Source: Euryodendron excelsum (taxonomy: Eukaryota; Streptophyta; Magnoliopsida; Ericales; Pentaphylacaceae). Taken from it: a stretch of 64,000 bases of DNA. Both the position numbers and the translations under genes were made by a program. The DNA lies in NCBI GenBank assembly GCA_033060915.1, contig CM065394.1:19551501-19615500 (forward strand). Reading direction: 5' to 3'. The notes beneath the pieces were generated by a model. The model saw only the letters and a program-made list of their open reading frames with translations, was not told where the DNA came from and ran no database searches. Below are positions 13,975-41,200 of this stretch, in pieces (within the stretch, counting starts at the first letter, position 1; the number at the start of each line of letters is the position of its first letter).

Positions 13975-14073
13975 CTACTCCTGGAGCAGCTGGAGCTGCC
14001 AACAAGAATCTGTCTGAGTCGCCTTCCTCAAGCGGCGTCTCCTCTCAGAGCCATTATCGCCCACATTTGCCAT
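13975..14073 (-). pseudogene. A1 antisense PMD gene, start of coding exon only
   Basis: From ATG at 14073 the - strand encodes MANVGDNGSERRRRLRK and stops at 13975. The first residues match the N-termini in B (MSEAGGDGPNRR) and D (MSEVGDDGSDRR). A 3' splice site (TTTTCAG, intron end 14075) lies one base before the ATG, as in D. The rest of the exon is missing or unrecognisable. In intact relatives the product would be a PMD protein; this copy encodes about 32 residues and cannot be functional. Confidence 0.65.
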
Positions 14074-15169: not shown

Positions 15170-15245
15170 GTTTTAATCCCAAGCCTGGCGCCACTAGCAG
15201 AGGTGCCAAACCAACTTTGCCAAAGGTGCCATTGCTAGTGGCACA
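15170..15245 (-). promoter_or_regulatory. Promoter module of the A1 antisense gene
   Basis: Two 21-bp palindromes of subfamily A type start at 15187 (arms GGCGCCACT and AGAGGTGCC) and 15225, 38 bp apart. On the - strand, 10 bp after the proximal palindrome, lies an AT-rich box TTAAAAC (15176 to 15170). The same 10-bp gap occurs in B and D. The module is about 200 bp upstream of the first splice donor and about 200 bp from the 3' LTR. Confidence 0.65.
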
Positions 15246-15430
15246 AGTTTCCAATTCTGGGTAGCTTCGCCACCTTTTCCCGCCAAAACTCATTTTCGAA
15301 GGCCTTTTTGGCCCGCTATCCATTTTCAACCCCCGTTGTTGAAAAATTCCCAATGTCTGTCCCTCCGAATGCCTCGCAGTCAACATGGCACTCTTACTTT
15401 TATCGTTTTTTGTCTTTGACAAGCAAAGAC

Positions 15431-15880: not shown

Positions 15881-17071
15881 ACGATTTTTGAAGAAAATCT
15901 CTTCGAGACGGTAAGTCCCTTTAAACCTGTCGACTGGGACGAGACCCCAAGTCCCTTAGATGGTAGAACGGTCCACCTTTGGCGCCTGCTAGCCCGCCAA
16001 TGCAGAAATGTCCGTTAGGCACGCCTTCCAAGAAAGTTGACTTCTTAGGCGCTAAGTCCCTTTAGCAACTTCTTGAGATCAGGCAGTCTCAGGAATGATC
16101 GCAAACCGTCAGAGTAGCAGAAATACTTACAAACATCACAACTGTTAGGGTAGCGAAAATACTAACAAGTAGGTCGATATAGGAAATTGCCAACAAACCC
16201 CTGTATCACGCGACCGCTGTCAGAGTGACGGAAATACTCAAAACCCAGGTCAACACCGGTGCCTACTAGCCCACTTTGGTGAAAAATGATGAAATTGCCC
16301 CTTGGGCTTTTTCCGAGACTTTCCGGTCAAGATGACCATTTTGCTCCTAGGCATTCGAACGCCCTCGAAACCACACCGGCTGTGGGTATCAAACCAGTAA
16401 CCTCCCAAGAAAACTTCTTATAGTATTCCTGACCTTCCTCTATCTTTCTGGATCATTCCTAGTCAATTCCGGCAAACCCGGTACCAAATGACCATTTTGC
16501 CCCTGGTGGGCCGGTCGCATTTTTCTATCCACACTGGCTCAGGGTATCAAACCGGTAACCTCCAGAGATTGCTTCTTATAGTGTTCTCAACTTTCCTCTA
16601 TCTTTTCGGATCATTCTGAGTCAGTCCCGGTAAACCCGGTACAAAATGACCGTTTTGCCCCTAAAGGGCCGGTCGTCTTTTTCGACCACACCGACTCTGG
16701 GTATCAAACCGAAAACCTTTGGGAACATTCTGAATAATGTTTTCAAATCTCGAGTCTTCTTCCGGGACATTTCGGGTCCGTCCCGGCAGCTTTTCAACTC
16801 GATTGACCGTTTTGCCCCTAATGGCCCGGTCAATCCTTTCGACACATCCTATTCTCATTTTTCAAGTCAAATATCTCTAGGACATTGTTCTAAGTGTTTC
16901 TGCCCTTTTCCAGCCTTCTGGGCCATTCCAAGTCCCTTAAATCATTTCTGGACTTTCCGGAGTCACTCCTAATGAAGCTAAGCTGAAAATTGCATGGTAG
17001 TCACTAGTACAGGCGCCCAAATCTAGTCAAAGATATGTGGCTTGCCGACCTTAATAGTTTCCTAATTGGAT

Positions 17072-17192
17072 GGCGCCACTACTAATGGCGCCAAGCCAAT
17101 ATTTGGCCTAGCGCCACTCCTAGTGGCGCCAGAAGCATTTTTGCCTTGACGTCACTACAACAAGCGCCAGGTTTATTCCACCTCTATAAATA
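17072..17192 (+). promoter_or_regulatory. A1 3' LTR promoter: three phased palindromes and TATA box
   Basis: Palindromes start at 17072, 17110 and 17148, exactly 38 bp apart. Each is 21 bp with 9-bp arms; the best arms are GGCGCCACT and AGTGGCGCC. The last ends at 17168, and TATAAATA follows at 17185 after 16 bp. The box, its CAGAGC continuation and its place about 1.7 kb into the LTR support a functional RNA polymerase II promoter in the ancestral element. Confidence 0.8.
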
Positions 17193-21551: not shown

Positions 21552-23934
21552 TGTCGCGCCCAGATTTTTTGCACTAGAGGAATACACATACAAGCGGAAA
21601 AAATATTGTACTCTCTCGTTAAAACTCATCATCCTAAAAGAATGAGTGCGACTAGGTTTGAATTGAAAAATAGATTTGAATAAAGGGCTTTTAGAAAACA
21701 TTTGGCGTCGCTACCTAACTTGATTAAGGTGAGTTAGGTCACCTAAAAACTAAGCTCAATCTGAGGATTACACTTAGAGTTTTTGAAAACTATTTTGAAA
21801 ATATCTCCTCGAGAGAGGGTTTTTAAGAAAACAGGTTGTTTGACAACTTTTAGAGAACATTTAAGCCCTTTTTAGAAAATAACTCCATTTTGGTCTTTCG
21901 AAAACAGTGATTCTAGGTTTGGAGGTTGGTTACGTATAGGGAAAACGCATTAAGCTATCACCCTACCCCGCCCTTGCGGTATCTACATATCTATTTACCC
22001 TAGATTGACCTATGAGAGTTTCAACTAACAAATGTCCAATCCTATCCACTTTAGAAAAGAATGTTTAAAAAGACATTATGCATGATATGTAAGTGCAAGA
22101 AAAGAAAGTTGGAAAATAGATTTGGAAAGAAATTGGTTTGATTTAAAAAGAAATATGAAAAGATAAATTTGAAATTGGAAAGTTTTAGAAATTGGAAATA
22201 GAGATTTGGAATTGGAAGTTTGAAATAGATCATGGAATTAGATATTTGAAGAAGATTGTAGAATTAGAGATTTGAAAGAAGTTGTGACCGCACCCATGAG
22301 GGTTGGCTACATATCCTTTTGGAGGAATCAGGTCAGTTGTGGTTCAGACAAGAGTCCGATAGAAAATAGATTTTTGATTTGAACTTAGAATAGAAGATTG
22401 GAAACTGGAATTTGGAATTGAAAGGATTAAGAAATTGATTTGGGAAAGATTAAGGTTGAGGAAACCTAGACTTAGGAAGATAGAATTTAGGAAGGACTCG
22501 AGATTAAGAAAGATTTGACTCGAATATTGGACTTGGAAGATTAGGAAAGTTGGAATTTAGGAAAGTTTCATTTTAGGAAAGTTTTGAATTAGGAAAGTTT
22601 CATTTTAGGAAATGTTTCAATTTAGGAAAGGTTTCGTTTTAAGAAAGTTTTGAAATTGGAAAGTTTTAAATTTGGAATGTTTTGAAATAGGGAAGTTTTG
22701 AAAGTAAGAAAGTTTTGAGTTTAGAAAATTTTAGATTTGGAAAGTTTTGAAGCTTAGGAAAGTTTAGAAAAGTTAGATTTGGAAAGTTAAGATTTGGAAA
22801 TGTGTGGAATTAGGAAAGGTTTAGACTAGGAAGGATTTGGAAGTTTAAAGTTTAAGGAAAGATTTAAATGTTTAAATTTTGGAAACCTAAGGTTTAGGAA
22901 AGTATGAGATTAGGAAGGAGTGGATTTAAGTAAGGTTTGGAGTTGGAAGGATTGAGATTCGTATTTCCTAAAATAAGGGATTGGATTTTGCTTCTAAAAA
23001 AGAGGTGTTTTGATTTTGTTTCCAAAAACGAAGGATAGGATCTAGTTTCCTAAATGGGAGATTGGATTTGGTTTCCTAAAGGGGAAGATTGGATTTGGGC
23101 ATGGATTTGGAAAGGAAAGTTTTAGAAACCCTAGATTTGGAAGTGTCGTGCCTCGGTTTTTGGGTGTCCAAGGTCCTTTCGCCTCGGAGACCAAAAGCAC
23201 GGAACTTTGTCACTAGAACTCGTCCTCCTAGAAGGACAAGTGCGACTAGGTTTGAAAATTGGTTTGACTAAGGGCTTTACAAAAAATAGGAGTCGCCAAC
23301 TAACTTCATTAAGGTGAGTTAGGGCACCTAAAACTAAGTGTTAATCCAAAGATTAAACTTAGGGTTTTTAGAACAGGTTTTGAAAACTCCATAAAGAGAG
23401 GGTTTTTAAGAAAATAGGTTGTTTGGTAACCTTTGGAAAGATTTAAGCCCTCTTGGAAAATAATTTCATTTTGGTCATTTGAAAACAGAAATCTATGGTT
23501 CGGGGGTTGGTTACGTGTAGGGAAGATATCCTAAGATCATCACCCTACCTCGCCCTTTCGGTACCTACATGTCTAATCACCCTTTTGTTCACTCACTAGA
23601 ATAATCGGTTACCATTGTCCACTTAATATCCACTTTAGAACTTTGAAAATGAGGTTTAGTCATCACTTTCGGATGAATGATGCATGATGCATGTTTTGGA
23701 AGAAATTTGAAACACGGAAGTCTTTGGAGGAGTTTGAAATGGGAACTTGGAGTTGATTGAAATTTTTGAAAAGGGGATTGGAGTTGAAATTAAAGTTATG
23801 ATTACACCATTTTAGGTTGCCTACGTGTCTCATTTGGCCAGAATCAAGTCATTCGTAGTTCGGGCAAGAGCCCGATGGAAAATAGGCGCATTAGGGCCTT
23901 TGGAAGGTTTGAAGATATTTTGGGATCTTTAGAA

Positions 23935-24150
23935 AAGTTTAAGACACTTTGAGGTCTTCAAAAAAGTTTAAGACACATAGAGGTCTTTGAAAAAGTTTAA
24001 GACACTTTGAAGTCTTTGGAAAAGTTTAAGTCTCTTGGAGGTCTTTGAAAACATTTAAGACATTTCGAGGTCTTTGAAAAAATTTAAGACACTTTGAGAT
24101 CTTTCGAAAAGTTTAAGACACTTGGAGGTCTTTGGAAGTTAAAGACTCTT
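23935..24150 (-). repeat. 29-bp tandem repeat in LTR B
   Basis: AAGACACTTTGAGGTCTT-type units start at 23941, 23970, 23999 and 24028, so the period is 29 bp, with about seven or eight units. The same array lies at about 39005-39220 in the other B LTR. Units are adjacent and related throughout, with no unique spacers. Confidence 0.85.
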
Positions 24151-24800
24151 TGTGGTCTTGGAAGTTTTGAGTTGAAATTGAATGGTGGGTTGTTTTGAAA
24201 ATGTTTTTAGATCAATTTAAGGGAGGTTTGGCAAAATGCTTCGGCAGGACTCAAGAGAACTTGAAAGTATTTTTGAAGTCTTGTTTCGAAAACCTTGGGG
24301 GCATGACTTTAGAATGTTTTGATAAATTAGTTTTTGAAAGTGGTTTTTGGAAATGGCTAAGGGTTTAGAATCCTAATATGGATAACCGTAGAAGTTGTTC
24401 ATGATTTATCACTTGTCCTTGGAATCCCTAACCATGAGAGGGCTAGGGACCCCTTAGGTTTGTGACCTTTTGAAAACGTTTTTGGAAATGCCTTAAAGAT
24501 GGAGTGTAAGAACATTAGAAGAGTTTATGGAGTTGGTTTTTTGAAATCAAGAGAGTAGAAAGTTTTGGAAAAGATGGGTTATGAGAATGGTTTAAAATTG
24601 AGTGATTATTTAGAAAAAGGTTCAAGAGTTGGAACCTTAAAGTATACTAACCTAGGTTGGGTTAGCCTAGGGTTAAGGGTAACCTAAGGTTAACAAACTT
24701 GGGTTAGGTTAACCTAGGGTTAAGATGACATATGGTTAACTAACTTGGGTTAAGTTAACCTAGGGTTAAGATGACTTAGGGTTAAGTTGACCTAAGGTGA

Positions 24801-24950
24801 GTGAACTAGGGTCAAGTTAACCAAGGGTTGGTCAACTAGGGTGAAGTTAACTTAGGGTTGGACAACTAGGGTGAAGTTAACCTAGGGTTGGTCAACTAGG
24901 GTGAAGTTAACCTAGGTTTAGTCAATTAGGGTCAAATTAACCTAGAGTTG
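24801..24950 (-). repeat. 30-bp tandem repeat, five units (3' LTR of B)
   Basis: Units of the form GTCAACTAGGGTGAAGTTAA plus CCTAGGGTTG repeat every 30 bp. The other B LTR has about seven units (39882-40090). The TAGGGTTA-like content recalls the plant telomere repeat, but the period and sequence differ. Confidence 0.85.
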
Positions 24951-26199
24951 GATTGGAAAATGGTTTTAAAAGTTGGTTTAATGCACTTTTGAAAAGAGTT
25001 TTGAAAAACAAAACATGTTATACAATGGACTTTGGTGGACAACCCTTTTGAAGATCATTTCTATGAAAATTGTGACTCTAGCCAAGAGTATGGTTTATAT
25101 GGTTGGTGATTGGAGACCATTCCAAGGGAAGTTTTCTCATGGCCATTATAACCTTTATCTTGACAAGAGTGGGGATTTTAAAAATCAACATGATGATGGC
25201 AACTTTTGGAAAATCATTTTTGATGCAAAGATGGAGAGAGTGTATTTTTGAAAATCATCTTTTGAGAAGGATTTTGAAAACCATTTTTCAAGGGAAACAT
25301 TCCATCAATAGAGGGTTCATATGGCCAAACAAAAGGGAGATCTCTCAAGAGAGGGTTCCATAGGACCATTCCAACCACTACACTTAAAAGAATGAAAATC
25401 TTAAAAATTGGAGAATTAGAAAGCAACCCTTATGCAAGTTAAAATATCATGATGCCAAAGTAGGAGTTAGGGGGTTAGTAAGAAACTTTCTAAAGCATGA
25501 TTTCTAAGGTCTTGTCCTCCACTTCAAGGGGATAACTCTTGAAACCATTTTCGAAAGAAATATGGAGCTTGGAAATGGCATGAAAACAAGAGCAATGTAA
25601 GCATTGTAGAACATGACAATAAGCATAAAATGAAGCCAAGCATGTAAGACATGATTGAAATAGTAATATGCAAGGGGTTATGATCACATACAAGGCTTTT
25701 ATGCTACACCACATAAACAAGGGGCTGCTAGGTCATACCATCTCAAAGTAGGCTAGTGAGAAGTCCCCCTACACGGTGGCTCTCACTTGCTTTCCTCTAG
25801 GCATGATCTAAGAGCCCTCATGGCTCAAGCATGCAAGAAATGGGGGTCGAAGATGGGGATTAAAACAGAGAATAACCTAAGTAGGCTAGGAGGGAGAAGA
25901 GAAGAGTGGGGGAAAACACAAATGTAAAAGGGATACCACGTTTTGCCTTCAACACACTTGTAGTCTTCGAAGGATGCTTTAATTAGAGCTTGAATGACTT
26001 CAAGAAGGCTTAGAGGGCTGGTAAGGAGTGTTTGATGGTGTATAAGGCTTTATATGTGAAGTATATAGGCTTAGGGATGATGTAATCTAACCTAAGTGTT
26101 GGAGGGATAAAGTGTGTATAGAGATTCGCAGTTTGGGAGTGACTTCAGCGGAGTTTCGCATAAAAAATCGGAGTTGGAATATGCAAAAGTGGGGTCTGG

Positions 26200-26317
26200 T
26201 ATTTATAAACATTATGTAACAGGCCTAGCGCATGTACTACATGCGCCTGGCCATAATTTGACTTGGCGTATGTAGGACATGCACAGGTATTGTTCCATTG
26301 CTAAAATGACACGTGGC
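26200..26317 (-). promoter_or_regulatory. Element B 3' LTR promoter: TATA, palindromes and G-box
   Basis: On the - strand, TATAAATA spans 26207 to 26200. Palindromes start at 26227 (arms AGCGCATGT and ACATGCGCC) and 26265, 38 bp apart, and the gap to TATA is 19 bp. Further upstream is GACACGTGGC (26308-26317), a G-box of the kind bound by plant bZIP and bHLH factors. The other B LTR has the same layout. Confidence 0.72.
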
Positions 26318-26379
26318 ACCTTGTGTACTGGTTAAATCTTGACTGTTGATCGAAGTTTGGTCAATCTGATCAAAATTTG

Positions 26380-27060
26380 AGCGCATGCAGCATACGCTAC
26401 ATCACCGGGTAGGTTCATCCAAATTTTGTCTTGATAATTGTGTCAATTGGGAAGGTTTCGGGGGAATCGGTTGCACTCGGGATGTTCTTCTAGGGCTTCC
26501 GGTGAACTTTCATGTTTTTAGAAAGTTTGAATTATGTTTGGAAGCAACGGATATTGTCTCAGGAAGCGTGCATAAAAGGACACTTTTGCAGAGCATCTGT
26601 GATACGCTCCGATGGTGTTCGAAAGTGGCTGTTTTCGTTTCGTGTGATCAAGGCCTTCGGGAAGCGATCCTTTCGATCGGACTGTACAAATGGAAAGTAC
26701 TTTGGAAATACTTTTGGGAATTCCTAGATTGACGCATTTCTCAAGTCGTTTGACGGTGCGTTTTAGTAAGGAAATTGGGAAAAAGTCAACCTTGGCGGAG
26801 CGCCTGCGAGACGCTCCAGGGGTTGTCAAAAGTAACTGGGTCTGAGCCATAAGATGAAGGGCTTCAGGAAGCAATCTATCCAATCAATCCATATCGATGG
26901 AAAGATCTATGAACGAGCTTCCAAGAATTCCCTGATTTACATATTTCTCAAGTTAGTTGATGGTATGTTATAACTAAAGAATCGGGAGGAAAGACAACTT
27001 AGGCGGAGCGTTTGTGAGACGTTCCAAGGAACTTTTACCGTGTTGTGAGCGTTTAATGTC
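26380..27060 (-). repeat. 208-bp tandem repeat with 21-bp palindromes
   Basis: GAGC anchors at 26591, 26798 and 27006 give a period of 207-208 bp. Each unit carries a palindrome of arms GGAGCGTCT and AGACGCTCC around a 3-nt centre (for example 26797-26817), the 9-3-9 design seen at the promoters. The array recurs in the B 5' LTR (about 41520-42200), D 5' LTR (about 49720-50290) and D 3' LTR (about 60790-61360). Confidence 0.8.
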
Positions 27061-27519
27061 ATAAGGTCCTCCTCAGGTTAAACAAGGGTGTATGGTGAAA
27101 CCCTTTGCTCGAAATCCCAAGACCGGTGCTGTTTCGGGGAATATTTGGATTTCTAGGGACAAAACGATCATTTTGACCGGGATTGGCCAGAAATGGTTAG
27201 GAATGGTTTGATGTGTTGTGTTAAGCATGTGGGGTTGTTCAGGTATGGTTATGGGAGAGTCTTTTACCGTTCGGTGGGGTTTGTGCAGTGTTGGGGTGTT
27301 TAGGGGCAAAACGGTCACTTTGATTGGAGTGGGCCGGAATAGAACCGGATTTTAACCAAATGGCGTGCGGGGGATGCCTTATAGTTTAACAACATTTTGG
27401 AAGGATAGAATTATCATTTTGAGGGATTCTGAACTTTCCCAAAACGTGTCTGGGGCCCAAGGGGCGGGTTTGGTCATTTTTCACCGAGTCGGACTAGCAG
27501 GCGCCGATATTGAGCTAGG

Positions 27520-27710
27520 TGTTGGTTCCTGAGACCGCCCAATCTCAGAAAGCTACCTGTGCAGTGTTGGTCTCTAAGAATGCCCAATTTTAGAGAGCTA
27601 CCCTTAGGAGTGGTGTTAGTTCCTGAGAATGCCTGGTCCTAGAAAGCTACCTAGAAGAGTGGTGTTGGTCTCTAAGAACGCCTGATCTCGGAGAGCTACC
27701 AAATGATGGA
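27520..27710 (-). repeat. Short tandem repeat of 45-49 bp with GAGACCG palindromes
   Basis: TGTTGGT-type anchors at 27520, 27565, 27614 and 27663 mark units of 45-49 bp. In D the units show a clean palindrome GAGACCGGGCGGTCTC (60234-60249 and 60279-60294), degraded here. It lies between the LTR start and the 208-bp array. Confidence 0.75.
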
Positions 27711-28020
27711 CATTCTACATTGGCGGGTTAGTAGGCGCCATAAGTGAATTGTCAAGAACTTGATGAGGTGTTGGTCCCCGAGATCTCCCGATCCCAGGAA
27801 GCTACCTAGATGATGTTGGTTTCCAGGACCACCTGATCCAGAAAGCTGCCTAGAATAATGGTGCTTATGGCTTCAGCGGGTCCTTGTGAACCCGTGAAGT
27901 GACCAGTTGGCTGGATTATAGGTTGAAAGGCTCATCTTGAACCTGCATGTGTTGTGATGTTGGAAAACTTTGCCCGGTTTGGCCGGAGATTGCCGAGCGG
28001 GCAAAAATGGGGTGCTTACA

Positions 28021-28050
28021 ACTGCCCCTCTTTTTCTGTCTTTGCTTGCC
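28021..28050 (-). other. Polypurine tract of element B
   Basis: On the - strand the bases before the 3' LTR read AGACAGAAAAAGAGGGGCAGT, almost identical to D and A1. This fixes B on the - strand. Confidence 0.85.
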
Positions 28051-28356
28051 AAAGGCGAAAAAATAACAAAGTAAGAATCCTTTTAGGTTGCGAGGCGATC
28101 GGAGGGACGATGCGCAGGTAAGTTTGAAATGCTCTGGGGACCCCTTGTGGGTTGCCGGTTTGGAACGTTTTGGAATTGAAAAAGCTTTACATTCAGGTTG
28201 AGAATCGGGTTGCCGGTTTGACATGTTTCAATTCAGGACATTCAATTCTTGTGAGTGAATGTTGAAAGGTCGACTTTCGGTTTTTGAAAAAGCCTCGGAA
28301 ATGGATTCGGACCTTTGGAAGTTTGAAACTAATTTTGGCGGGAAGCTGAAAGGTCT

Positions 28357-28477
28357 GGCACATGCGTTACATGCGCCTACATTGTTTTAACCCTGGCACA
28401 TGTGATACATGCGCCTGTTTAGATCCTGTGCTAGTGCATCTGCTACATGCGCTAGCCCATGGCCATTTAAACAGAGC
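28357..28477 (+). promoter_or_regulatory. Promoter module of the element B antisense PMD gene
   Basis: Three 21-bp palindromes of subfamily B type start at 28357, 28395 and 28433, exactly 38 bp apart. The second has arms GGCACATGT and ATACATGCGCC-like ends. The last ends at 28453; 10 bp later comes CATTTAA (28464-28470) followed by ACAGAGC, the heptamer that also follows the LTR A TATA box. It probably starts a transcript running away from the 3' LTR into the PMD gene. Alternative: an inert remnant of an internal LTR copy. Confidence 0.68.
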
Positions 28478-28479
28478 AG

Positions 28480-28663
28480 GTTGCGTTTTCCAATGCATAT
28501 TTCTTGTTTTAAGTTTGATCCGAGGGTTGCTTTGAAGGTTTTTCGATGGATTTTGACTAGGAATCATTAGAGGAGTGTCAGGAGACGTTGGGCACGTGCC
28601 GGTTGCTATCATTGTCACTATATTCTCGCCGGAAAGCTTGGTTTTTGCCGGAGAATTTCAAAG
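28480..28663 (+). other. Non-coding exon 1 of the B antisense gene (inferred)
   Basis: The start is placed just after the core box and is approximate. The end is set by the donor TTTCAAAG|GTTAGT at 28663/28664. GCCGGA and GGAGAA motifs before the donor are shared with D (reversed, up to 59152) and A1 (up to 14984). No conserved reading frame is seen. Confidence 0.5.
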
Positions 28664-30554
28664 GTTAGTTTTCTTGAAATTTCTTCGATTTTGATGCATA
28701 TGTCTCGATTTTTTGCCAATGATTAGTGTATTCCTATACTTTAAGATGTTTAGAACACAATGATCAGACTGTTTTTGTAATTTGGTGGAGATTTGAATGT
28801 GTTTTGAATGATTTTTCATGTTTATGAAAGTGAGTTTCTTGCGGGACTTGAAAAATTGCCTCTACAAGCTTGGGCATTAATTGTTTGTGTGCGATTTTTA
28901 CACCGAGAACCTTAGAAAAATGTGTAGAACAGTCGTATGAAATTTTGTAATTTTTTGAAAATTTTGAATTTTTAAATTTTTAGAAATTGTGGAAAATAGG
29001 AAAAACTAAAGAAAATTAAAAAACGGATCATGTTAAAGGTTGAAAAATCACTGAACATTTTTAGAAAATTGTGGTGACACACTCAAATGTTCTAGGAATT
29101 TTTGTGAAATTTTTTGGAAATAAAATTGAAATCAAAAATTTTTGGAAGCTGAGGAATTGTCCTAAAAATTATGTTTGAGGATAGGTCGCGTGTCGTGGGG
29201 GCGAGATTGTTTTGACTGATGTGGTGGAAGGTCTGAGATTGTTTTGGGCTGTGTTTGTGACTTGTGGAATTTCGGGGTAGTGACTTTTTAAGGCAAAATT
29301 CTACCAAAATTTTCAAAAATTTTAACACTTAGCTTTAAAACCTTTCAGTAAAGCAAATCCTTTTGGGAAAGGGGCTTTTGAGGAAGAAAGCCCGGAGAAA
29401 CCTTAACTTTGGAGAAATTTTTGGGAGTGGGATTTTTGAAGGAGAAAAATCCCGGGAAACTGATTTTTAGAAAACTTATGGAACAGGGCTTTTGAAGGTG
29501 AAAGCCTGGGAAACCGTTAAACCCTTAAAATGAGACTTTATGAGGGAAAAGCTCGAAAAATAGTTAAAAATGTTGAACAAGGGCTTTTTGAAGGAGAAAG
29601 CCCGAGAAACCAGTTTGAAATTTTAAAACGGAATTTTTAAGGGGAAAACCCGGGGAACCGATTTGAAATTTTAAGATTAGACTTTTTGAGGAAAAAGTTT
29701 CGAAAACCATTAGAAAATTTTTGAACCAGGGTTTTTGAAGAAGAAAACCTGGGAAACCGGTTTGGACTTTTGAAACCAAACTTTTTTAGGTAAAAGCTTG
29801 AAAACCCTTAGAAAATTTTTGAACCAGGGTTTTTAAAGGAGGAGACCCGAGAAACCGATTTTGAAATGTTGAAGTCAAACTTTTGAGGGGAAAACTTGAA
29901 AACCATTAGAGAACTTTTGAACCAAGGCTTTTGAAGGAGAAAGCCCGAGAAACCGACTTGAAATTTTGAAATGAGACTTTTTGAGGAAAAAGTCCGAAAC
30001 ACCGTTAGAAAATCTAGAAACGGTGTTTTTGAAGGAGGAAACCCGAGAAACTAGTTTTGAAATGTCAAAGTCAAACTTTTGTGGGGAAAACTTGAAAACC
30101 ATTAGAGAACTTTTGAACCAAGGCTTTTGAAGGAGAAAGCCCGAGAAACCGCCTCAAAATTTTGAAATGAAACTTTTTGAGGAAAAACCCGAAAAACCTT
30201 AGAAAATCTGGAAACGGGGTTTTTGAAGGAGGAAAACCTGAGAAATCGGTTTTGAAATGTCAAAATGAGACTTTTTGAGGAAAAAGCCCAAAAAACCGTT
30301 TAGAAATTTTAGGTACCATACTTTTGCGGGGAAAGCTAGAAAATTGTTAAAAATCTTAAATGGTGATAGGTGGGGCCCTAGCCCTTCCACTTTTTCTTTT
30401 CTCTCTTTTTCTTTCTTTTTCTTTTTTTTTCTTCTTTCTCTTTTCTCTTTTTTTTTTCTTTCTTTTCTTTTTGTATATATATTGACGCATTTATCTTTGC
30501 GCTTATCACATATGGTGACTGATTGATTCTTTTGAATGTTGTCATTTTTTCAAG
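28664..30554 (+). other. Intron 1 of the B antisense gene (inferred)
   Basis: It begins GTTAGTTTTCTTGAAATTTC, matching the first bases of the D intron, and ends in a polypyrimidine run and CAAG directly before ATG at 30555. In D and A1 the acceptor is TTTTCAG one base before the ATG, so the B acceptor is weaker. It contains a tandem array (29360-30300) and a T/C-rich stretch (30385-30475). Confidence 0.62.
29360..30300 (+). repeat. Intronic tandem array, unit about 95-100 bp
   Basis: GGCTTTTGAAGGAGAAAGCC-type starts recur near 29486, 29580, 29728, 29827, 29924, 30022, 30119 and 30215. Between them a second motif (GAGACTTTTTGAGGAAAAAG) recurs with the same period, so each unit is two related halves. 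The D intron has the array (about 57740-58450, reversed); A1 lacks it. Predicted peptides of the KALVQKFSNGF type arise from this repeat. Confidence 0.85.
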
Positions 30555-32497
30555 ATGTCGGAGGCCGGGGGTGACGGTCCGAATAGGAGGCACCATGGGA
30601 AGGCACCATGGACTGAGCTCGAGGAGGGCAGCGGTAGCCGGGGTAGCTCGGCCAGGGGCGGCAGCAGGACCGGCTCAGCTCGGAGCAGTGGCCGGGGTGG
30701 CCCAGTGCGAGGAGGCAGCAGGGGTGGTTCCACGCGGAATAGTGGTAGAGTTAGTTCTCCTCGGGATGGCCGTAGTGGGTCACACCGATCTTTGAGCAGG
30801 ACAGCTTCTAGTGGGAGCTCCATGATGGGGCAGCCTTCGGCGGCTCTCAATGAGAGATTTGAGGATGAGGCTGACTCGTCCGTGGACCCACGGATAGGGT
30901 ACGATATGGCCTCTGTTCAGGACAGGTGGAGAGATACTTCATTCACCGATGACCAGCTAGCCATTCCTGATATCCCACCGCTAAGTGACTTGGCGTTCCA
31001 CCCAAGCCTATATTCGCGCTACAGTCGGATGCCATCATCTAGCCACAGTTCCTTTAGAGGGGTTAGTATCTCGGCCTTGAGGGCTATGCAGGTGTCAGCT
31101 CCATCCTATCAGGACTTTTTTGCATCGGATTGGTTTTGGTGCTTTTATGACCTTGCAGATGGACAGACTTGATCACAGGATCGCTATGGGGTTGTTAGAG
31201 CGGTGGTTCGAGGAGACAGGGACCGTACACTTGGTGGGTTTCGAGTTGGGACTTACCCCCGTCGATTGGGCTATGATTACCGAGCTATCTTTCGAAGGGG
31301 TTCCGATCTCTTTACGGGACGTGTCTCTAGGGGAGGCCCGTCTTCTCTTGTGGTTGCCAAGGCTTGGGGGCTCGAGTTTCCCAGCTTCACTTTTATGCTC
31401 AACAGAGACAGCCTTTGCTTTTGAGCCTTCTCTAGATGACCAGATTATTACGAGGCGCCGGTTGGTGCTGTATGTCATCTTTAGTTGCTTTTGCAACAAT
31501 AATAGGTCGATGGTTCCTTTGTCTTTAGTGAGCCTGGTAGCGGATCTGGATGCGCTAGACTACGTTGATTGGGGTGCTTTCACCTTTGCTTGCTTTTTAC
31601 GAGGGATGAGAGTAAGGACATCCAGGGTTTGGGGGAGCTTGACGAGCTTTTGGCCGTTTCTGGTATGGTGGGGCTATGAGTATTTGCCGGTTCCCCGACC
31701 AGAGGTGTTAGCGGGCGATGCCTTCCAGCGGGCCACAAGGTGGGCTAGGCAGTAGGTAGTCCAGCGGTCTTTGCTCACAGATTTTGTAGCCCTCATGGCC
31801 AACTTGGAGCTGCTGAGGCCTCGGGTTGTGACCTAGGCCCCTTACCACCGGTCCACCCAGTATGCAGGCATGAGGGACGTCATCCTTTTATCCAGGTCGC
31901 GGATCACCTTTCAGGGCCCTGTGTAATGGGAGACGTATCTCGGGGAGCCTCACTGGCGGCAGCTTCATACTGCCTTCCGTGCGGCCATGAATCCTCCCCA
32001 GTATATGTTTGGACTTTATCGGGCCGAAGTAGTGATCCCTTATATAGTCGGGGTTCCTGGTGAGCGGTTCTTGCTTTTGCCGGATGTGGATTATAAGGCT
32101 CATTTTCGGGCGAGATCCATTGGCGCCTTCACCCAGCTAGATCTGGTGGTCAGAGGGCAGGCGGTTGGCCATGAGGTGGTGGAGCATTGGCGTCGAGCTT
32201 AGGGTTTTGTTTCTGAGAAGGAGTACCTAGTAGCTTGCCAGGCATGAGATCAGTACCGTGTTGAGGTGGAGGCCCTAACTGCCTGCATATCTTTGATGGA
32301 GGCTCGTTGGGTGTGTTATTTATGGTTCATTATTTTCATGTTCCTTATGCATCCCTTGTGTTTGACGCTAGCTCTTCTTCCTTTTTGCCTTTTTCTTTGG
32401 TCAAGGTCCTTTTGATGCGGGAGCTTCCTCCAGCCAGCCCTCTCCGTATGTGCCGGACTTGGATGATTTTGGTTTGGACGATGGCCCTGTTCCTTGA
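30555..32497 (+). pseudogene. Element B antisense gene: plant mobile domain (PMD) protein, broken
   Basis: The coding exon starts at ATG 30555 (MSEAGGDGPNRRHHGK). Residues 1-90 are rich in Ser, Gly and Arg; then comes a stretch shared with D (VDPRIGYDMASVQDRWRDTS). One frameshift near 31110-31125 moves to the frame carrying the PMD-like part (LLERWFEETGTVHLVGF, then WAMITELSFEGVPI). In-frame stops include those at 31753 and near 32200. The block YMFGLYRAE...SIGAFTQ (from about 32005) matches C. A last exon (32414-32497) encodes 27 acidic residues like that of C. PMDs occur in plant transposon proteins and in MAIL1/MAIN-type host proteins; the biochemical role here is unknown. It is antisense to the element. 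Confidence 0.78.
32311..32413 (+). other. Intron 2 of the B antisense gene (inferred, acceptor lost)
   Basis: By alignment with C, exon 2 ends at 32310 and the intron begins GTGTGT. The last exon starts GATGCGGGAGC at 32414. In C the matching exon is preceded by TTTGTAG; in B the TAG is absent, leaving CTTTT directly before GAT. The splice acceptor therefore looks destroyed in B. Confidence 0.5.
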
Positions 32498-34934
32498 GGC
32501 GCCCCTTTTTATCTGTTGACACAGCTGTAGTTCAGTTAGTTTGGCTGTATTGTTTTATGTTTTAATAGCTGTATGTTGGCCCTCATGGATGATGATTGTA
32601 TGATGATTTTATGTGCATTATTTTTGTTTCTTGCATGCGATGATGTTTATTTCTTCCTTCTTGTTTCATCATATATGTTATGTGGATATACGATGGGTAT
32701 GAATGCAAACACAGGGATACAGAAATCATGGTATGCATAAGAAATGGTGGATATGTGCAAACTTGAAGCAGATGTGAGAAGGTAGGTGTATTGTCACACA
32801 CATTCAGACAAAGCATACATGTATATAGCTTTATATAGACCAGGCCAGAGGTAGATTGGGCGTTCACTAGAAACTATTGTTTCAGCATTTTGCTATTTCT
32901 TTGAAAATCCCTTTTTTTGTTATGCTCTTCTCTTACCATGACGTGATAGTAGTTGCCCCATTCCTAGGGTTTCCATTTTCGGATCCGACTCCCCTTTCTC
33001 TTATTTGAGAAACTGTCTCTCAATTGATTTTCTCTCGGGGGCCTTACGTTTGATCTGGTAGACTCTCCAGGTGACAGTCGAAGTAGCCTTTAGTAAAGGA
33101 GCAAGCAGTTTCCATCCTCAATCCAAGAAGACTTTACTTTGGACCGTAAAGTAGGCTAGGTAATGGGTGATGAATGAAGGGGTATTCAAGCTCAAATGAT
33201 TCTCTTTTCTTCCCTTTTTTTTTTTTTTTTTTTTTGTTGATAGTAACTATAACCACATTAAGTAAGCTTTTGCTGCTTTGTTTTTTTTTTTTTTTCGAAT
33301 ATCACCATTTTCTTTTGAACTTGTTTAGACTAAACAATCTTCCCTGATCTGAGGGGACTTTTTGTGGATTATAATGTGGCCAGGTTGCGGGTTTTTGAAG
33401 GAAATGGTATCGAAGGCTCAAAGAGTTATATGGTTTCTGGGGTTTACCTATGATCACCTTTCTAGATCTTTGTGGGCTTATCTTTCCCTTTTTCTCTCTT
33501 CCTTTTTGTACGAACTCACACCCATATAGGGCTCGTCATTTTTTTTTTAGTTTTTGCCCCAGTACTACCGCTTGCACAATCTATCGACTTTTGAGAGGCA
33601 TTAATCATCATCATCATTTTTTTTTTGTTTTTTTTGGGTATTGCCTTGTTTCCCTCCTCTTTCGATGTAGGAGGGGGCCTTTTTTCTCTCCATACTCCTT
33701 TTTTGTCATTTTTTCCTCTGAGCTTGCCTTTGCCCATTGCAGGGGGTGATCACTAGTGCGGGTTTTTCGAAGGAATATGATTTGGCTCAAAAGAGGTTTT
33801 TCGAAGAGGATTCTTTTAACTGTATGGTAGCAGAACAGATGACCCCTCTTCCTTCCAGACAAGATTGCTTAGACTATGAAGTTCAGTTTTAGAGCTTCTG
33901 GTGTCATCCTTTGAAACAAACAGGTGTTAGCTTAATTGTTCTGTCACTCGCACTTGCCCCAATGTGGGGGGTGATTCTTAGTTAGGGTGTTTGAATGAAA
34001 ATTACTTGTGGCTTGAGTGGGCTAACCAAGGGAATTACTTTTGCTATTCCAAGGACTTTGAAATGAGGGCTTCTTTTCCTTTCGAGGGTCTAACTGCTGA
34101 CTGCTTTGCCATGGCGTCTTTTGGAGGCCACCCTTTTTGTGATTCACTGTCCTTCCTTCCTTTCGCTATCTTTCCTTTTGGATCATAAATGGTCCCCATA
34201 GGCGAGGACGCATGAACCATCCCTCCTTTCAATTTAGGGCGTAACAACAAAAAAGGAAAATTCTGAGAAAGAGCAAGTACCAAAGATGATAAATGCAAAT
34301 TTCAACTTCTTTCATTTCAAAAATTCTGTTTGCATGATGAGCTCTTGATTAGCAAAAGATGAAAGTAGAGTTAACGAAGCAAAAATTAACAGGAAAGTAA
34401 AGACAAAGTTTAGTAGAAGAACATCCTTTTAACAATCACTTCTTCAAGTAGGTTTTGAGACAACGCCTACCTTTTCCATGCTCCATTTGTTGGCTTCTTC
34501 ACTTAGTTGTGTTGGACGAATTAATGCATCAGCTGCGGAGTGTCAGAGACCAGCAATCATAGTGCAACCAGGGCTTCCTCCTTTTCCTTCTTCTTCTTTA
34601 GTGGGGTCAGTGAGGTTACACGTCCCATCTTGGGACCCCTACTGGCTCTCCTTGAGTTGGGTAGTTTTCTCTTTCTCGGCTTCTTGGGATTTCATAACCA
34701 GGCTTTCTTTAGAGGCTTGCAACAACTCTTTTTTGGCTTATTCTTTTTCAACTTCCCTTTTGTCAATCTTTGTAAACAGGCTATCCAGATCACCTTCGTT
34801 GAATTCGAATGGTGGGTTTGGTAGTTTCGGCTCATAGATGCCCCAGCCCATGTCCTCGTAGTCGATGAGTTCTTTTTTCAGGCGAGCCTCAGTTTTAGCA
34901 TATCAAGGATGTAGGAATTCCTCTCCTTAGCCAT
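32498..34934 (-). other. Element B spacer between gag and antisense gene; no pol
   Basis: This 2.4 kb lies where pol would be expected in an autonomous element, but no reverse transcriptase, RNase H or integrase motif is readable on either strand. It contains poly-T runs (33215-33236 and 33279-33295) and the CCCCA-N3-TGGGG hairpin (33957-33969). It aligns in patches with A1 10600-12000 and C 45800-47200 (reversed), so the lack of pol is shared rather than a local deletion. Confidence 0.7.
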
Positions 34935-36670
34935 CTACAGGTGCAGTATCATTGGGAATGTTTGCAATGGGTTCATCCATGGGCCAATCGAAAGGGTCTT
35001 GTCTCCACTTGTGTTGTAAAGATAGATAGGGCATGGTGCCAGTTCTTCCTCCCAATTGCTTTCAGTGTCTGACTCACCCTCGAAGTACTCTGTGGTTATG
35101 ATGCCATCAGGATTCGCCTCATCCTCGGTGATGATGTTGACAGCATGGTATGGTAAGGGATTTGCCGTGACATTAGGCGTGGGGACCGGCTTTGTTTCTT
35201 GGGTGTTAATAACCTTGTTGTCAATGTGGTCTTGAATCTTATGCTTCAAAGAGAAACAAGGTTCTGTGTCATGCCTCTGTCTCGCAGAATGGTACTCGCA
35301 GGTAAGAGCAGGCTTAAAAGTTGGCGACAACGGGCTTGGCAATGGTCGCGGGGGGATAGGGTTTATATGCTTGGCTTTGAGGAGCTCATGATAGGCCTCT
35401 ATCTGGGAGCATGCCAAACGTGTGAATTCTCGATTTCGTTGATTGTTGTTTTTGTTAGAGTTGATGTATGGTCGGCCTGCAGTAGGTCCAGTTGACGGTG
35501 CTTGGATAGTAACAACAGGGATGTCGATGATGGGAGCAGGCGGTGAAGGTCAAGCTTGGTATTGGGGGTAATATGGCTACTGTTATGTAGGCAGGATGGC
35601 GGATACTTCTCCTTCTTTCTTGCCGAACCCTCAAGTGGTGGCTACCTTCTTAGCCGCATTCGCAAATTCCTCACTTGTCCTAGCATAGGGGTCAATGATT
35701 TTGCCAAGTTTCAGTCCATTCTTGTTCATTTCCCCTTACATTATCAACTCAGAAAAGCTCTTCCCAATGCTCAGATATAGACATTCATAGTACGGATGGT
35801 GTTCACAAACAGTTGCAAATACTCTTTTTCCAACAATGGGGGGTTGACTTGGGCGGTTGCCTCCCTCCACCTTAGAGCGTAATTCTTGAAGCTTTCTTTC
35901 TCTCCTCGAGTCATCATCATTAGGCCACACCGGTCCATGGGTAGATCGCTATTATGGCAGTATTAGGATTGAAAGGCTGAGACCAGTTCGCTCCAGGTTG
36001 TAATTTTCCTTAGATCCAACAGGGCAGACCATTACAGTGCAGGCCCTGTCGAACTATGTTGGAATAGTTGCATCAGGAGTTTGGGGTCATTCCCATGGCC
36101 ACTTAGTGCCCCAGCGTATAGTCTTAGGTGAGCCACGGGATCTCCGCTTCCATTGTACTTTTGGAAATCAGGCATCTTGAATTTGGGCGGCCTTAGGTGG
36201 TCAGGGAAGAAGCAGAGTTCATCGTAGGACATCCCACCGAAGGTGTCATGACCTTATAGGCTGCGTAGGGACTACTCTAAGCCTTGTATCTTGAGATCGA
36301 GAGGGTCTGGGCCTTCCTTCTTTGATGTGGCAATTAGCAAGATGGTTTCAGGGTTGTCCTCTTATCCTTCCTTGAGGTATACCGCTTTGGGGAGCTCCTT
36401 GCTCTTCGTTGCACCATCAGGTCACACGACGACCCTTGGCGGGATTGCTTCAATTTCCTTAGGGTGTGATGTTGAGGTTGATGGATTTGTGACAGGCCCT
36501 TTGAAGGCTATTAGTTGCATGAGCTTGAACATCCCGTCTATCTTTGCGTCCATTTCATTCACTTCTTTACGTGCCACTGAATTGTTCTGTTGATCAGGAG
36601 TATTACCTTCGCTCGACATTTGTGCTGTTGTTTGTCGGGTACGGACTGGTGTTCGGAGGACGAGGGTCAC
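34935..36670 (-). pseudogene. Element B gag, broken by stops and frameshifts
   Basis: It starts near 36670 with a Thr/Gln-rich head. It then shows MPDFQKYNGSGDPVAHLRLY (about 36180-36120), typical of Ogre-like gag, and GEKESFKNYALRWREATAQV (about 35900-35840) matching C. A zinc-knuckle-like CEYHSARQRHDTEPC keeps Cys, His, His, Cys but has Arg for the usual Gly. An acidic tail (DTESNWEEELAPCPIYLYN) follows. Beyond 34935 weak similarity to C continues (DYEDMGW near 34860). The product would be the particle-forming Gag. No protease active site is seen after it. Confidence 0.8.
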
Positions 36671-38199
36671 TCGCGTTCCTTTCTTTCCTTTTCTTGGAGC
36701 AATGGTGACCTACAATGTGAGCAGTCTCACCAAAGCTATTGCTAGTCTTTTGATGAGACAGGGGGAGGAAAAGAAAATAAGGAAAAACAAATAAAAGGTT
36801 TACATGTTAGGTTCTTGATTTGGAAAATTTTTTATACGATACATTGCCTAAGGATGTCCTTGCCTTTTGAGGGGAATTAAATATGATGCTTTGGCTCATA
36901 TCTGGAGATAGGGGATTGCCCCTGCATGCGAATACTATACTTACCCCTGTTCATCCATTCATAGATTCATTCATTCATTTGATAATAAGAACAATTTTAT
37001 TAAGATGAATTCTTTTTGGTACATACAAATTCTCAAAAATATATAGAAATGGGGAGGGGGAACATTTACCTTGGGACTTCCATCTATTTTACATTTACAT
37101 CATAGAACTCTAAACTATTCTTGAGCCTCTGGATCTACTTTGTTGGTAGGAGCCCTTGATTTGAATTGCTCCCTTATCTTCTCGGCAACCCTATCTCCAT
37201 GAGCAAAGAGGGATTAAGGCCCCTCTTTATGAGATGACTGTGATGCATGCCATGAATCCTTAGGGTCTCGTGGTACCCTTAAGAGTTTTGAGTTGGTTTG
37301 AATTAGATGAGAAAGTCTTTGAGCCTTTCTCTAAGGGTTGATTGGATGTATGAAGATACAACGACTGGAGTTACTTTGAGAACTCTTGTCTTGAAGTGAG
37401 TTCCGATACATGTGTAGTTATGATGCATGTACATGGAAACAGCAATAATTAAATAGCATAACAACATGGATTAAACAAAATATATAAGGAAAAATAAAGC
37501 AGTCGTCCTTTCCTTCTTGGTTTTGAAATTGATGCGTGTGTCCTAAATCCGGCAGAGGCTCGACTATGCATGGGGTGCTGTATGAGCATGAGGTTGGGGG
37601 TTTACCAATGCTTCCTAAAAAGCTTAGTCCCCAAACCTTCAAACCTCCGGCATCCACCCCCGAAAGGGTGAACTCCATCTTTGGTTGGCGTTTCGAACGG
37701 GGGAATTATCAAGAGACCGTAGGCTAAGAAATTGACACAGCATCCGCCCACAGTCAATATACTGTTCCCCCTTCTATCTAGAAGGGTAGTAACCAGGTAA
37801 TATATGCAAGATACAAATGCAAGTGAGTGCGCCAAGTGTGTGTGAAATTTTTTAAAATAGAGGAAAGGACCCAACAACACACATCACATCCTGTACATTC
37901 ATTCACATACATGGAAATAAATAAGATATGAAACAAAAATGTGAACAAAGGTCCACCTACAAAAGACAAATGCAAAGAGTTAGTAACTTTTCAAAAAACT
38001 CGATGCAAGGTAAAATGGATGATTAATGTAAGAGTATGAATGTAAACATTGAATGCGAGTGATAACACTATTTTGAAAAAATAGAACAGCTTTGAAAACT
38101 TGAAAATTTTTGAAGAGTGGATAAAATTGGACAAAGTAACCAGAGATTCTAGGTGAGTGAAGGGTGAAGAGACATGTTAACGGCCTAACCCTCAAAGTA
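36671..38199 (-). other. Element B untranslated leader
   Basis: The 1.5 kb between primer-binding site and gag has no conserved frame. It aligns in patches with the A1 leader (8617-10080). Predicted frames here (for example 37418-37880) are not shared with A1. Confidence 0.65.
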
Positions 38200-38218
38200 G
38201 TCCCCAGTGGAGTCGCCA
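38200..38218 (-). other. Primer-binding site of element B
   Basis: On the - strand TGGCGACTCCACTGGGGAC follows the 5' LTR end (38221) after a 2-nt spacer. It differs from the A1 site at two positions. It is the sequence I associate with tRNA-Arg-primed Ogre elements. Confidence 0.85.
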
Positions 38219-38220
38219 GG

Positions 38221-41200
38221 TGTCGCGCCTCGGTTTTTGGGTGTCCAAGGTCCTTTCGACTCGGAGACCAAAAGCACGGAACTCTGTCACTAGAACTCAT
38301 CCTCCTAGAAGGACAAATGCGACTAGGTTTGAAAATTGGTTTGACTAAGGGCTTTACAAAAAATAGGAGTCACCACCTAACTTGATTAAGGTGAGTTAAG
38401 GCACCTAAAACTAAGTGTTAATCCAAAGATTAAACTTAGGGTTTTTGGAACAGGTTTTGAAAATTCCCTTAAGAGAGGGTTTTTAAGAAAATAGGTTGTT
38501 TCGTAACCTTTAGAAGGATTTAAGCCCTTTTGGAAAATAATTCCATTTTGGTCATTTGAAAACAGAAATCTATGGTTCGGGGGTTGGTTACGTGTAGGGA
38601 AGATATCCTAAGATCATCACCCTACCTCGCCCTTTCGGTACCTACATGTCTAATCACCCTTTTGTTCACTCACTAGAATAACCGGTTACCATTGTCCACT
38701 TAATATCCACTTTAGAACTTTGAAAATGAGGTTTAGTCATCACTTTTTGGATGAATGATGCATGATGCATGTTTTGGAAGAAATTTGAAACACGGAAGTC
38801 TTTAGAGGAGTTTGAAATGGAAACTTGGAGTTGATTGAAATTTTTGAAAAGGGGATTGGAGTTGAAATTAGAGTTATGACCGCACCATTTTAGGTTGCCT
38901 ACGTATCTCATTTGGCGAGAATCAAGTCATTCATAGTTCGGGCAAAAGTTCAATGGAAAATAGGCGCATTAGGGCCTTTGGAAGGTTTGAAGATATTTTG
39001 GGATCTTTGAAAAGGTTTAAAACACTTTGAGGTCTTTGGAAAAGTTTAAGATACTTGGAGGTCTTTGGAAAAGTTTAAGACATTTTGAAGTCTTTGGAAA
39101 AGTTTAAGACACTTGGAGGTCTTTGAAAAAGTTTAAGACATTTTGAGGTCTTTGAAAAAGTTTAAGACACTTTGAGGTCTTTGGAAAAGTTTAAGACACT
39201 TGGAGGTCTTTGAAAGTTGAAAACTCTTTGTGGTCTTGAAAGTTTTGACTTGAAATTGAATGGTGGGGTGTTTTGAAAATGTTTTTGGATCAATTTAAGG
39301 GAGTTTTGGCAAAATGATTCGGCATGACTCAAAAGAACTTGAAAGTGTTTTTAAAGTCTTGTTTTGAAAATCTTGGGGGCATGACTTTAGAATGTTTTGA
39401 TAAATTAGTTTTTGAAAGTGGTTTTTGGAAATAGCTAAGGATGTGAAATCCTAATATGGACAACTTTAGAGGTTGTTCTTGATTTATCACTTGTCCTTGG
39501 AATCCCTGACCATGAGAGGCCTAGGGACCCCTTAGGTTTGTGACATTTTGAAACCGTTTTTGGAAATGCCTTGAAGATGGAGTGTAAGAACATTAGAAGA
39601 TTTTATGGAGTTGGTTTTTTGAAATCAAGAGAGTTGGAAGTTTTGGAAAAAATGGGTTATGAGAATGGTTTAAAATTGAATGATTATTTAGAAAAAGGGT
39701 CCAAGAGTTGGAACCTTGAAGTATACTAACCTTGGTTGGGTTAGCCTAGGGTTAGGGGTGACCGAAGGCTAACAAACTTCGGTTAGGTTAACCTAGGATT
39801 AAGATCACTTATGGTTAACTAACTTGGGTTAAGTTAACCTAGGGTTAAGATGACTTAGGGTTAGGCTAACCTAAGGTGAGTGAACTAGGGTCAAATTAAC
39901 CAAGGGTTGGTCAACTAGGGTCAAGTTAACCTAAGGTTGGACAACTAGGGTCAAGTTAACTTAGGTTTGGTCAACTAGGGTCAAGTTAACCTAGGATCGG
40001 ACAACTAGGGTCAAGTTAACCTAGGGTTGGTCAACTAGGGTCAAGTTAACATAAGATTGGACAACTAGGGTGAAGTTAACCTAGGGTTGGATTGGAAAAT
40101 GGTTTTGAAAGTTGGTTTAATGCACTTTTAGAAAGAGTTTTGAAAAACAAAACATGTTACGCAATGGACTTTGGTGGACAACCCTTTTGAAGATCATTTC
40201 CATGAAAATTGTGACTCTAGCTAAGAGTATGGTTTATATGGTTGGTGATTGGAGACCATTTCAAGTGAGGTTTCCTCATAGCCATTATAACATTTATCTT
40301 GTCAAGAGTGGGGATTTCAAAAATCAACATAATGATGGCAACTTTTGAAAAATCATTTTTGATGCAAAGATGGAGAGAGTGTATTTTTGAAAATCATCTT
40401 TTGAGAAGGATTTTGAAAACCATTTTTCAAGGGAAACATTCCATCAAGAGAAGGTTCATATGGCCAAACAAAAGGGAGACCACTCAAGAGAGGGTTCCAT
40501 AGGGCCATTCCAACCACTACACATAAAAGAATGAAAATCTTGAAAATTGGAGAATTGGAAAGCAATCCTTATGCAAGTTAAAATATCATGATGCCAAAGT
40601 AGGAGTTAGGGGGTTAGTAGGAAACTCTCTAAAGCATGATTTCTAAGGTCTTGTCCTAGGTTTCAAGGGGACAACTCTTGGAACCATTTTCGAAAGAAAT
40701 ATGGAGCTTGGAAATGGCATGAAAATAAGAGCAATGTAAGCATTGTAGAACATGACAATAAGCATAAAATGAAGCCAAGCATGCAAGACATGATCGAAAT
40801 AGTAATATGCTAAGAGTCATAATCACATACAAGGCTTTTAGGCTACACCACATAAATAAGTGGCTCCTAGGCTATACCATCTCAAAGTAGGCTAGTGAGA
40901 GGTCCCCCTACACTGTGGCTCTCACTTGCTTTCCTCTAGGCATGATCTAAGAGCCCTCTTGGCTCAAGTATGCAAGACAGAGGGGTTGAAGATGGGGATT
41001 AAAATAGAGAATAGCCTAAGTAGGCTAGGAGGGAGAAGAGAAGAGTGGGGGAAAACACAAATGTAAAAGGGATACCATCTTTTGCCTTCAACACACTTGT
41101 AGTCTTCCAAGGATGCTTTGATTAGAGTTTGAATGACTTCAAGAAAGCTTAGAGGGCTGGTAGGGAGTGTTTGATGGTGTATAAGACTTTATATGTGAAG

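Follow-up and report, generated by a model that had tools for sequence, protein, structure and literature searches.

The closest described parallel to the arrangement reported here comes from the VANC/VANDAL systems of Arabidopsis, Mutator-like DNA transposons in which an element-encoded protein goes together with a motif of about nine bases that recurs in the element's non-coding parts and differs between related families (PMC5735166). Among long terminal repeat (LTR) retrotransposons, Retand and Grande carry an antisense gene between gag-pol and the 3' LTR (PMC7264820, PMC11963269). Grande gene23 has an upstream promoter that drives its transcription (PMC7264820), and a regulatory role has been suggested for antisense accessory genes, with TRP28 as a predicted DNA binder (PMC11963269). 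The PMD domain has been reported in 57% of Ogre elements (PMC6317226), and the PMD proteins MAIN and MAIL1 have been linked to a promoter motif called DOWN (PMC7156037, PMC9899485), direct binding to which is not known (PMC9899485). Here we describe a 64-kb stretch of Euryodendron excelsum contig CM065394.1 (the window), which consists of nested LTR retrotransposons and reads as plant DNA from its contents. Self-comparison and boundary reading resolve two related families, A and B, which are probably Tat/Ogre-like. In both, the LTR promoter and the promoter of an antisense PMD gene contain inverted repeats in a fixed 38-bp phase just upstream of a TATA-type box, and the arms of these repeats are of a type that matches between the two promoters of a subfamily.

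The locus resembles the VANC systems in that a short motif, here a 9-bp arm of two types, is repeated in non-coding regulatory parts, namely the LTR and antisense promoters. It differs in that the hosts are LTR retrotransposons instead of DNA transposons and in that the arms keep a fixed phase ahead of TATA in both promoters of an element; the word "palindrome" is absent from the main text of PMC5735166. A VANC protein also binds its motif and brings about a loss of DNA methylation. As in Retand and Grande, the predicted antisense gene would lie between gag-pol and the 3' LTR, and three copies in the window have this position and the predicted promoter and splice plan. The protein, however, is PMD where theirs is TRP28, and the available parts of PMC7264820 and PMC11963269 do not mention an operator shared with the LTR. 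Very long LTRs combined with PMD are also found in Ogre elements with a PMD extra open reading frame, for which PMC6317226, in its available part, gives neither a regulatory function nor a promoter motif. Among the papers that the literature searches listed, judged by title and abstract opening, none describes a plant LTR retrotransposon whose LTR and antisense promoter have a phased palindrome operator in common, which is no proof of absence. Outside plants, the U3 region of human T-cell leukemia virus 1 contains three 21-bp repeats upstream of TATA that respond to the element-encoded regulator Tax. This is an analogy only, because protein and sequence are unrelated.

The LTR promoter arrays are as follows.

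3553..3649, minus strand: A LTR promoter array in a solo LTR (sites 3553, 3591, 3629)
3704..3762, minus strand: A LTR distal pair (3704/3742), weakly palindromic, 38 bp apart
16959..17017, plus strand: A LTR distal pair (16959/16997), weakly palindromic, 38 bp apart
17072..17168, plus strand: A LTR promoter array (sites 17072, 17110, 17148), with TATAAATA 16 bp beyond
54751..54825, minus strand: A LTR array with a missing palindrome, 54-bp spacing
26227..26285, minus strand: B LTR promoter pair (26227/26265)
41366..41424, minus strand: B LTR promoter pair (41366/41404)
50475..50533, plus strand: B LTR promoter pair (50475/50513)
61541..61599, plus strand: B LTR promoter pair (61541/61579)
60800..61446, plus strand: B LTR distal sites, three of them (60800, 61008, 61216) of GGAGCGTMT type and one a hybrid (61426), with counterparts in the other three B LTRs

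A first-pass annotation of this DNA had claimed 13 adjacent pairs of 21-bp palindromes at 38 bp, and all 13 start exactly 38 bp apart (3553/3591, 3591/3629, 15187/15225, 17072/17110, 17110/17148, 26227/26265, 28357/28395, 28395/28433, 41366/41404, 50475/50513, 59362/59400, 59400/59438 and 61541/61579). Scanning added the two distal A pairs listed above; a third, 54880/54918, was placed by homology, so its spacing is no independent finding. These distal A sites are poor palindromes, with 3 to 7 of 9 positions paired. The exception to the phase is the A LTR at 54751/54805, where the spacing is 54 bp and one palindrome is missing. Concerning the palindromes themselves, the layout of two 9-bp arms around a 3-nt centre (9-3-9) stands, and perfect pairing does not: none of the 25 proximal sites is paired at all nine positions, while 10 are paired at eight or more and 19 at seven or more. 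The TATA-proximal A site is outright asymmetric, with a right arm that is ACAGGCGCC-like in all four copies, and a right arm of this kind recurs in all three copies of the distal A site (16997, 3704, 54880).

Arm types and phase were both set against chance. A scan for the arm types (at most 4 mismatches) matched promoter sites only, in 9 A-type and 14 B-type rows, and the best matches in five Markov sequences carry 5 mismatches. An unbiased definition (9-3-9, seven or more of the 9 arm positions paired, four or more G/C in each arm) yields 11 pairs at 38 bp; ten Markov sequences yield about 10 pairs for a whole window, and these are spread over all distances from 22 to 260 bp. When at least 8 of 9 pairs and at least 3 G/C are demanded, there are 36 such palindromes where 6.7 are expected. 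Loops of 5, 7 and 9 are in excess as well (26, 30 and 25 vs 8.9, 6.7 and 5.7 expected); these are in part the same dyads with arms longer than 9 bp, and the 38-bp pairs reappear among them. Two further candidates were dropped. The 17-bp spacers are themselves palindromic only in some cases (1 to 6 of 7 arm positions), and viral contig matches to the A and B palindromes (1 and 8 stretches) are taken as chance, with at most 5 of 9 positions paired at the readable places ±38 and ±76 bp away.

The arms are kept while the sequence between them drifts. Within arrays, identity is 0.78 for arms, 0.39 for the 3-nt centre and 0.30 for the 17-bp spacers, compared to 0.26 for random 17-mers (17 comparisons in nine arrays, leaving out the LTR at the window edge and the one at 54751). 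Hence, the arrays are more than a plain tandem duplication. Across each subfamily, homologous copies included, arm identity is 0.76 in A (11 units) and 0.81 in B (14 units), and left-spacer identity is 0.40 and 0.38. The arms depart from their family consensus 59 times; 45 of these departures are transitions, of which 43 are C>T or G>A, a predominance as would be expected for methylated cytosines. Without C>T and G>A, departures fall to 2/144 in B LTRs, 3/108 in B antisense promoters, 1/90 in the second and third proximal A sites and 2/36 in the A antisense promoter. The TATA-proximal A site retains 8/72 because of its deviant right arm.

The position of the arrays relative to the core promoter is equally regular. 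As had been claimed, the last site ends 16 bp from TATAAATA in four of four A LTRs and 19 bp from it in four of four B LTRs; the A count includes the LTR at position 23, which is split by an insertion further on. The constant 10-bp gap proposed for the antisense promoters had to be relaxed to 10–12 bp, depending on which T/A run is chosen as the box. All four B LTRs have sites starting exactly at -40 and -78 from TATAAATA. Measured from the same box, the A LTRs at 3553 and 17072 have two sites with starts at -75 and -113, and the spacing places their third at -37. Outside the sites and TATA, A and B promoters can barely be aligned.

Sites also occur further upstream. The A LTRs at 3553 and 17072 have additional ones at about -188 and -226, and B LTRs at about -193, -403, -611 and -819 from TATA. 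The site at -193 is a hybrid with 3 to 5 of 9 positions paired, and the three beyond it have GGAGCGTMT-type arms within degenerate 208-bp repeats. Between repeat units of B2 to B4 these arms are 0.67–0.83 identical and the flanks 0.27–0.54. In B1, two of three comparisons are out of register at fixed offsets (0.11, 0.06), and the single comparison in register gives 0.83 for arms vs 0.33 for flanks. It is possible that the GGAGCGTMT-type palindromes are distal sites for the same protein. The degenerate 208-bp repeats in B U3 span 26380-27025, 41519-42165 and 60800-61446, with one GGAGCGTMT-type 21-bp palindrome each. A CCAAT box lies just upstream of the sites in two of the four B LTRs.

The second set of arrays belongs to the antisense gene, whose parts are listed here for B1, for A and for the second B copy (B4).

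28334..28344, plus strand: TTTGGCGGGAA box of the B1 antisense promoter, 12 bp upstream of the array
28357..28453, plus strand: B1 antisense promoter array (sites 28357, 28395, 28433) in 38-bp phase
28466..28471, plus strand: TATA-like TTTAAA box of the B1 antisense gene, aligned in the B copies
28664..30554, plus strand: predicted first intron of the B1 antisense gene, from GTTAGT to the AG ahead of the ATG, holding tandem repeats
30555..32412, plus strand: B1 antisense PMD gene, in broken reading-frame pieces
15277..15287, minus strand: TTTGGCGGGAA box of the A antisense promoter
15187..15245, minus strand: A antisense promoter array of two sites (15187, 15225)
13978..14073, minus strand: start of the A antisense protein (MANVGDNGSERRRR), resembling the B start, the rest being degenerate
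59471..59481, minus strand: TTTGGCGGGAA box of the antisense promoter in the second B copy
59362..59458, minus strand: second B antisense promoter array (sites 59362, 59400, 59438)
56433..57497, minus strand: antisense PMD gene of the second B copy, in degraded form

The antisense promoters of A, B1 and B4 align with one another and share one order. The TTTGGCGGGAA box comes first and is followed by two palindromes in A or three in either B copy, then by a T/A-rich box and finally by a predicted 5' splice site. Exact TTTGGCGGGAA occurs three times in the 64 kb, once per antisense promoter and nowhere else. We take it to be an E2F-type box, and it is possible that the antisense gene is timed to S phase. 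Promoter, splice sites and start are assigned by prediction, with the 5' splice site 197 (B1), 200 (B4) or 193 (A) bp past the box, an acceptor TTTTCAG/G immediately ahead of the ATG in A and B4 (AAG in B1) and protein starts MSEAGGDG, MSEVGDDG and MANVGDNG. Pfam places PMD (PF10536) at 31081-31752 (plus strand, E 2.8e-12) in the B1 gene; PMD in B4 and at 48547-48729 was found by similarity to B1. The latter is part of another PMD gene remnant, 47825-48729 on the minus strand beside a truncated B LTR, which preserves the C-terminal part with a charged, helix-like end. Large tandem repeats of about 50/100 bp fill parts of the predicted first intron in both B copies (29470-30310, 57722-58403).

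What connects the two promoters is the arm sequence. The inner arm bases are CACT in A and ATGT in B. All 16 B LTR arms, all 12 B antisense arms and all 4 A antisense arms are closer to their own subfamily's type, so the earlier claim that an antisense promoter carries the arm type of its own LTR is borne out. The broader claim that arms are subfamily-specific needs one qualification: 14 of 18 A LTR arms are closer to the A type, and the four deviant ones (three closer to B, one tie) are the asymmetric right arms of the TATA-proximal sites. The antisense promoters of the two subfamilies are orthologs, so that equivalent sites of both promoters have undergone the change in inner bases. It is improbable that one array was recently copied into the other promoter, because the B LTR and B antisense spacers are only 0.38 identical (random 0.26). 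The suggested co-divergence of site and factor holds for the sites, as a single evolutionary contrast between two subfamilies; the A antisense gene is too broken for its PMD to be compared with that of B.

A candidate for the protein is encoded by the element. Database relatives of the antisense protein are P0001, P0002 and P0003, the first with 392 aa and 71% identity across 90% of the query piece. Further protein searches were limited to the 7998 candidates with most words in common, so the number of relatives is a lower bound. The first-pass guess that PMD is the factor receives independent support. The best structural match to the modelled fold of P0006, a PMD relative, is the VANC21-DNA crystal structure 9lnj, and DUF1985, a VANC domain, appears as a weak second family, below the cut-off, in 10 of 22 PMD proteins. 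That PMD binds these sites is still a model. Other analyses of the protein gave nothing further: the family scan gave no DUF1985 in the element-type P0001, the poor AlphaFold2 model of P0001 had no significant Foldseek match, the PMD profile reached at best E 0.65 against PDB sequences (tropomyosin coiled-coil matches E 1.1–4.6), and a coiled-coil heptad test was not significant. TRP28 (PF04195) was absent from the scanned antisense pieces and relatives, which have PMD instead.

The likeness to MAIN and MAIL1 is that PMD proteins are linked to a promoter motif in both cases. The MORC1 copy of the DOWN motif is CATGCAGTTT (PMC7156037, PMC9899485), and it has CATGC in common with the B arm ACATGCGCC, a 5-mer that may be chance. 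The DOWN motif is not enriched in the window (5 matches with at most one mismatch vs 4.3 expected). A sequence one mismatch off the MORC1 copy, CATGCAATTT, lies in the distal-pair spacer of all three A LTRs that have the pair (3725-3734, 16987-16996, 54901-54910).

We read the arrays as operators for a sequence-specific protein because arms are kept while spacers drift, the position relative to TATA is fixed and the orthologous antisense promoters carry their own arm type. Of the original proposal, a dimeric protein on a periodic operator, the phased inverted-repeat operator common to both promoters stands, and we infer the dimer: most likely, two protomers would occupy each 21-bp site, one on each 9-bp arm. 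The operators would lie just upstream of TATA in both promoters of a Tat/Ogre-like element, with the LTR promoter producing genomic RNA and the internal antisense promoter a spliced mRNA for the PMD protein. The bound protein would most likely be PMD itself, as a DNA binder of the VANC type. At its own promoter PMD would then exert feedback; at the LTRs it would activate its own subfamily or keep it unsilenced; and as its specificity drifted, the sites in both promoters would change together. We consider it an even call whether the element's own VANC-like PMD protein reads the operators in this way, with sites co-drifting with its specificity. More tentatively, and with more doubt than confidence, one could argue that PMD is a branch of VANC-like DNA binders, that the antisense PMD of the retrotransposon is a self-directed, subfamily-specific switch, reading the phased palindromes of the LTR and of its own promoter so that each family would serve itself alone, and that host MAIN/MAIL1 are domesticated relatives of such switches. 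If PMD does bind the arms of its own subfamily, an anti-silencing or autoregulatory strategy of DNA transposons would extend to LTR retrotransposons, and host MAIN/MAIL1 would gain a plausible DNA-reading ancestry. The shared operator and the structural link between PMD and VANC bear on the role of plant retrotransposon antisense genes (PMC7264820, PMC11963269) and on direct chromatin contact by PMD complexes (PMC9899485).

One could also argue that a host transcription factor, from a dimeric family whose members differ in specificity, recognises the operator and is borrowed by the element at both promoters. LTR promoters commonly use host factors, and host factors may well act nearby, given the exact E2F-type box at the antisense promoters and the CCAAT box in two of four B LTRs. 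Annotated MAIN-LIKE relatives of PMD also turned up in plant genomes in the protein search. What a host factor explains poorly is the joint change of the same inner bases in B1 promoters that are far apart, the antisense promoter lying about 2 kb from the 3' LTR promoter and about 13 kb from the 5' LTR promoter. We regard borrowing from the host as unlikely, though far from negligible.

Two other explanations would do without a protein. Inverted repeats in U3 and the 3' internal region would be part of the genomic RNA and could be hairpins serving RNA packaging or termination, or DNA cruciforms, and further 9-3-9 palindromes do lie downstream of the A LTR promoter. In favour of this idea, in the 21 proximal sites other than the TATA-proximal A sites, four arm pairs have changed on both sides and all four are complementary. 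Against it, 34 arm pairs of these sites have changed in just one of the two arms, all four copies of the TATA-proximal A site retain a right arm that does not complement the left, and the arrays accompany TATA-type boxes whichever way these face with respect to genomic RNA. We regard hairpins as very improbable. Least probable of all is an origin of the arrays as a side effect of a 38-bp unit duplicating in tandem, with no selected function. Such duplication would yield an identical period, and LTRs and introns here are rich in tandem repeats; yet neighbouring spacers are near random while arms are not, and the phase is kept across two subfamilies and in both LTR and antisense promoters despite differing spacers.

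The operator reading concerns elements that are nested in the window as follows.

~86-5324, minus strand: A solo LTR, target site duplication (TSD) ACGTT
23..43, TATA at 60, remainder 5325-8595, plus strand: interrupted A 5' LTR, with its promoter site at the window edge and the solo-LTR insertion just past TATA
15448-20437, plus strand: A 3' LTR, whose partner 5' LTR is interrupted by the A solo LTR
~51233-56352, minus strand: A LTR copy
23144..43161, minus strand: element B1 with both LTRs, TSD CTTCC and sequences like a primer binding site (PBS) and a polypurine tract (PPT)
~23144-28019 and 38220-43161, minus strand: B1 LTRs
48730-51223, plus strand: truncated B LTR
from 59810, plus strand: further B LTR

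A LTRs are about 5.0–5.2 kb long and a full B LTR is 4.9 kb. The PBS-like sequence of B1, given as TGGCGACTCCACTGGGGA and TGGCGACTCC, presumably matches a tRNA, and a purine tract is present as well. Pieces inside the B1 internal region look gag-like by eye, and a Pfam scan of them gave no match. The element copies may be non-autonomous, since none of 10 internal pieces scanned, out of many more listed, matched a pol domain; in Tat/Ogre elements pol would carry an aRH between RH and INT. The lineage is filed as Tat/Ogre-like by LTR size, PMD, gag and PBS: B1 has long LTRs (4.9 kb), TSD, PBS-like and PPT-like sequences, PMD (PF10536) sits in an extra open reading frame, albeit a broken one, and the gag and PBS features are what we take to be typical.

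Other palindromes were seen in the window. The 9-3-9 palindrome AACCACTTT nnn AAAGTGGTT lies downstream of the A LTR promoter (2691, 6128, 18011, 43683, 53912), twice paired with a second palindrome 20 bp off (6148, 53892); possibly it forms an RNA hairpin in the transcript leader. Close to the 3' end of three A LTRs is GTGAATCTA nnn TAGATTGAC, with 8 of 9 positions paired (8139, 19980, 51644). Just 5' of the purine tract in the A element lies the palindrome TGTCTTTGACAAGCAAAGACA (15411-15431), and related sequence occupies the equivalent place in B1 (~28020-28055) and B4 (~59775-59805).
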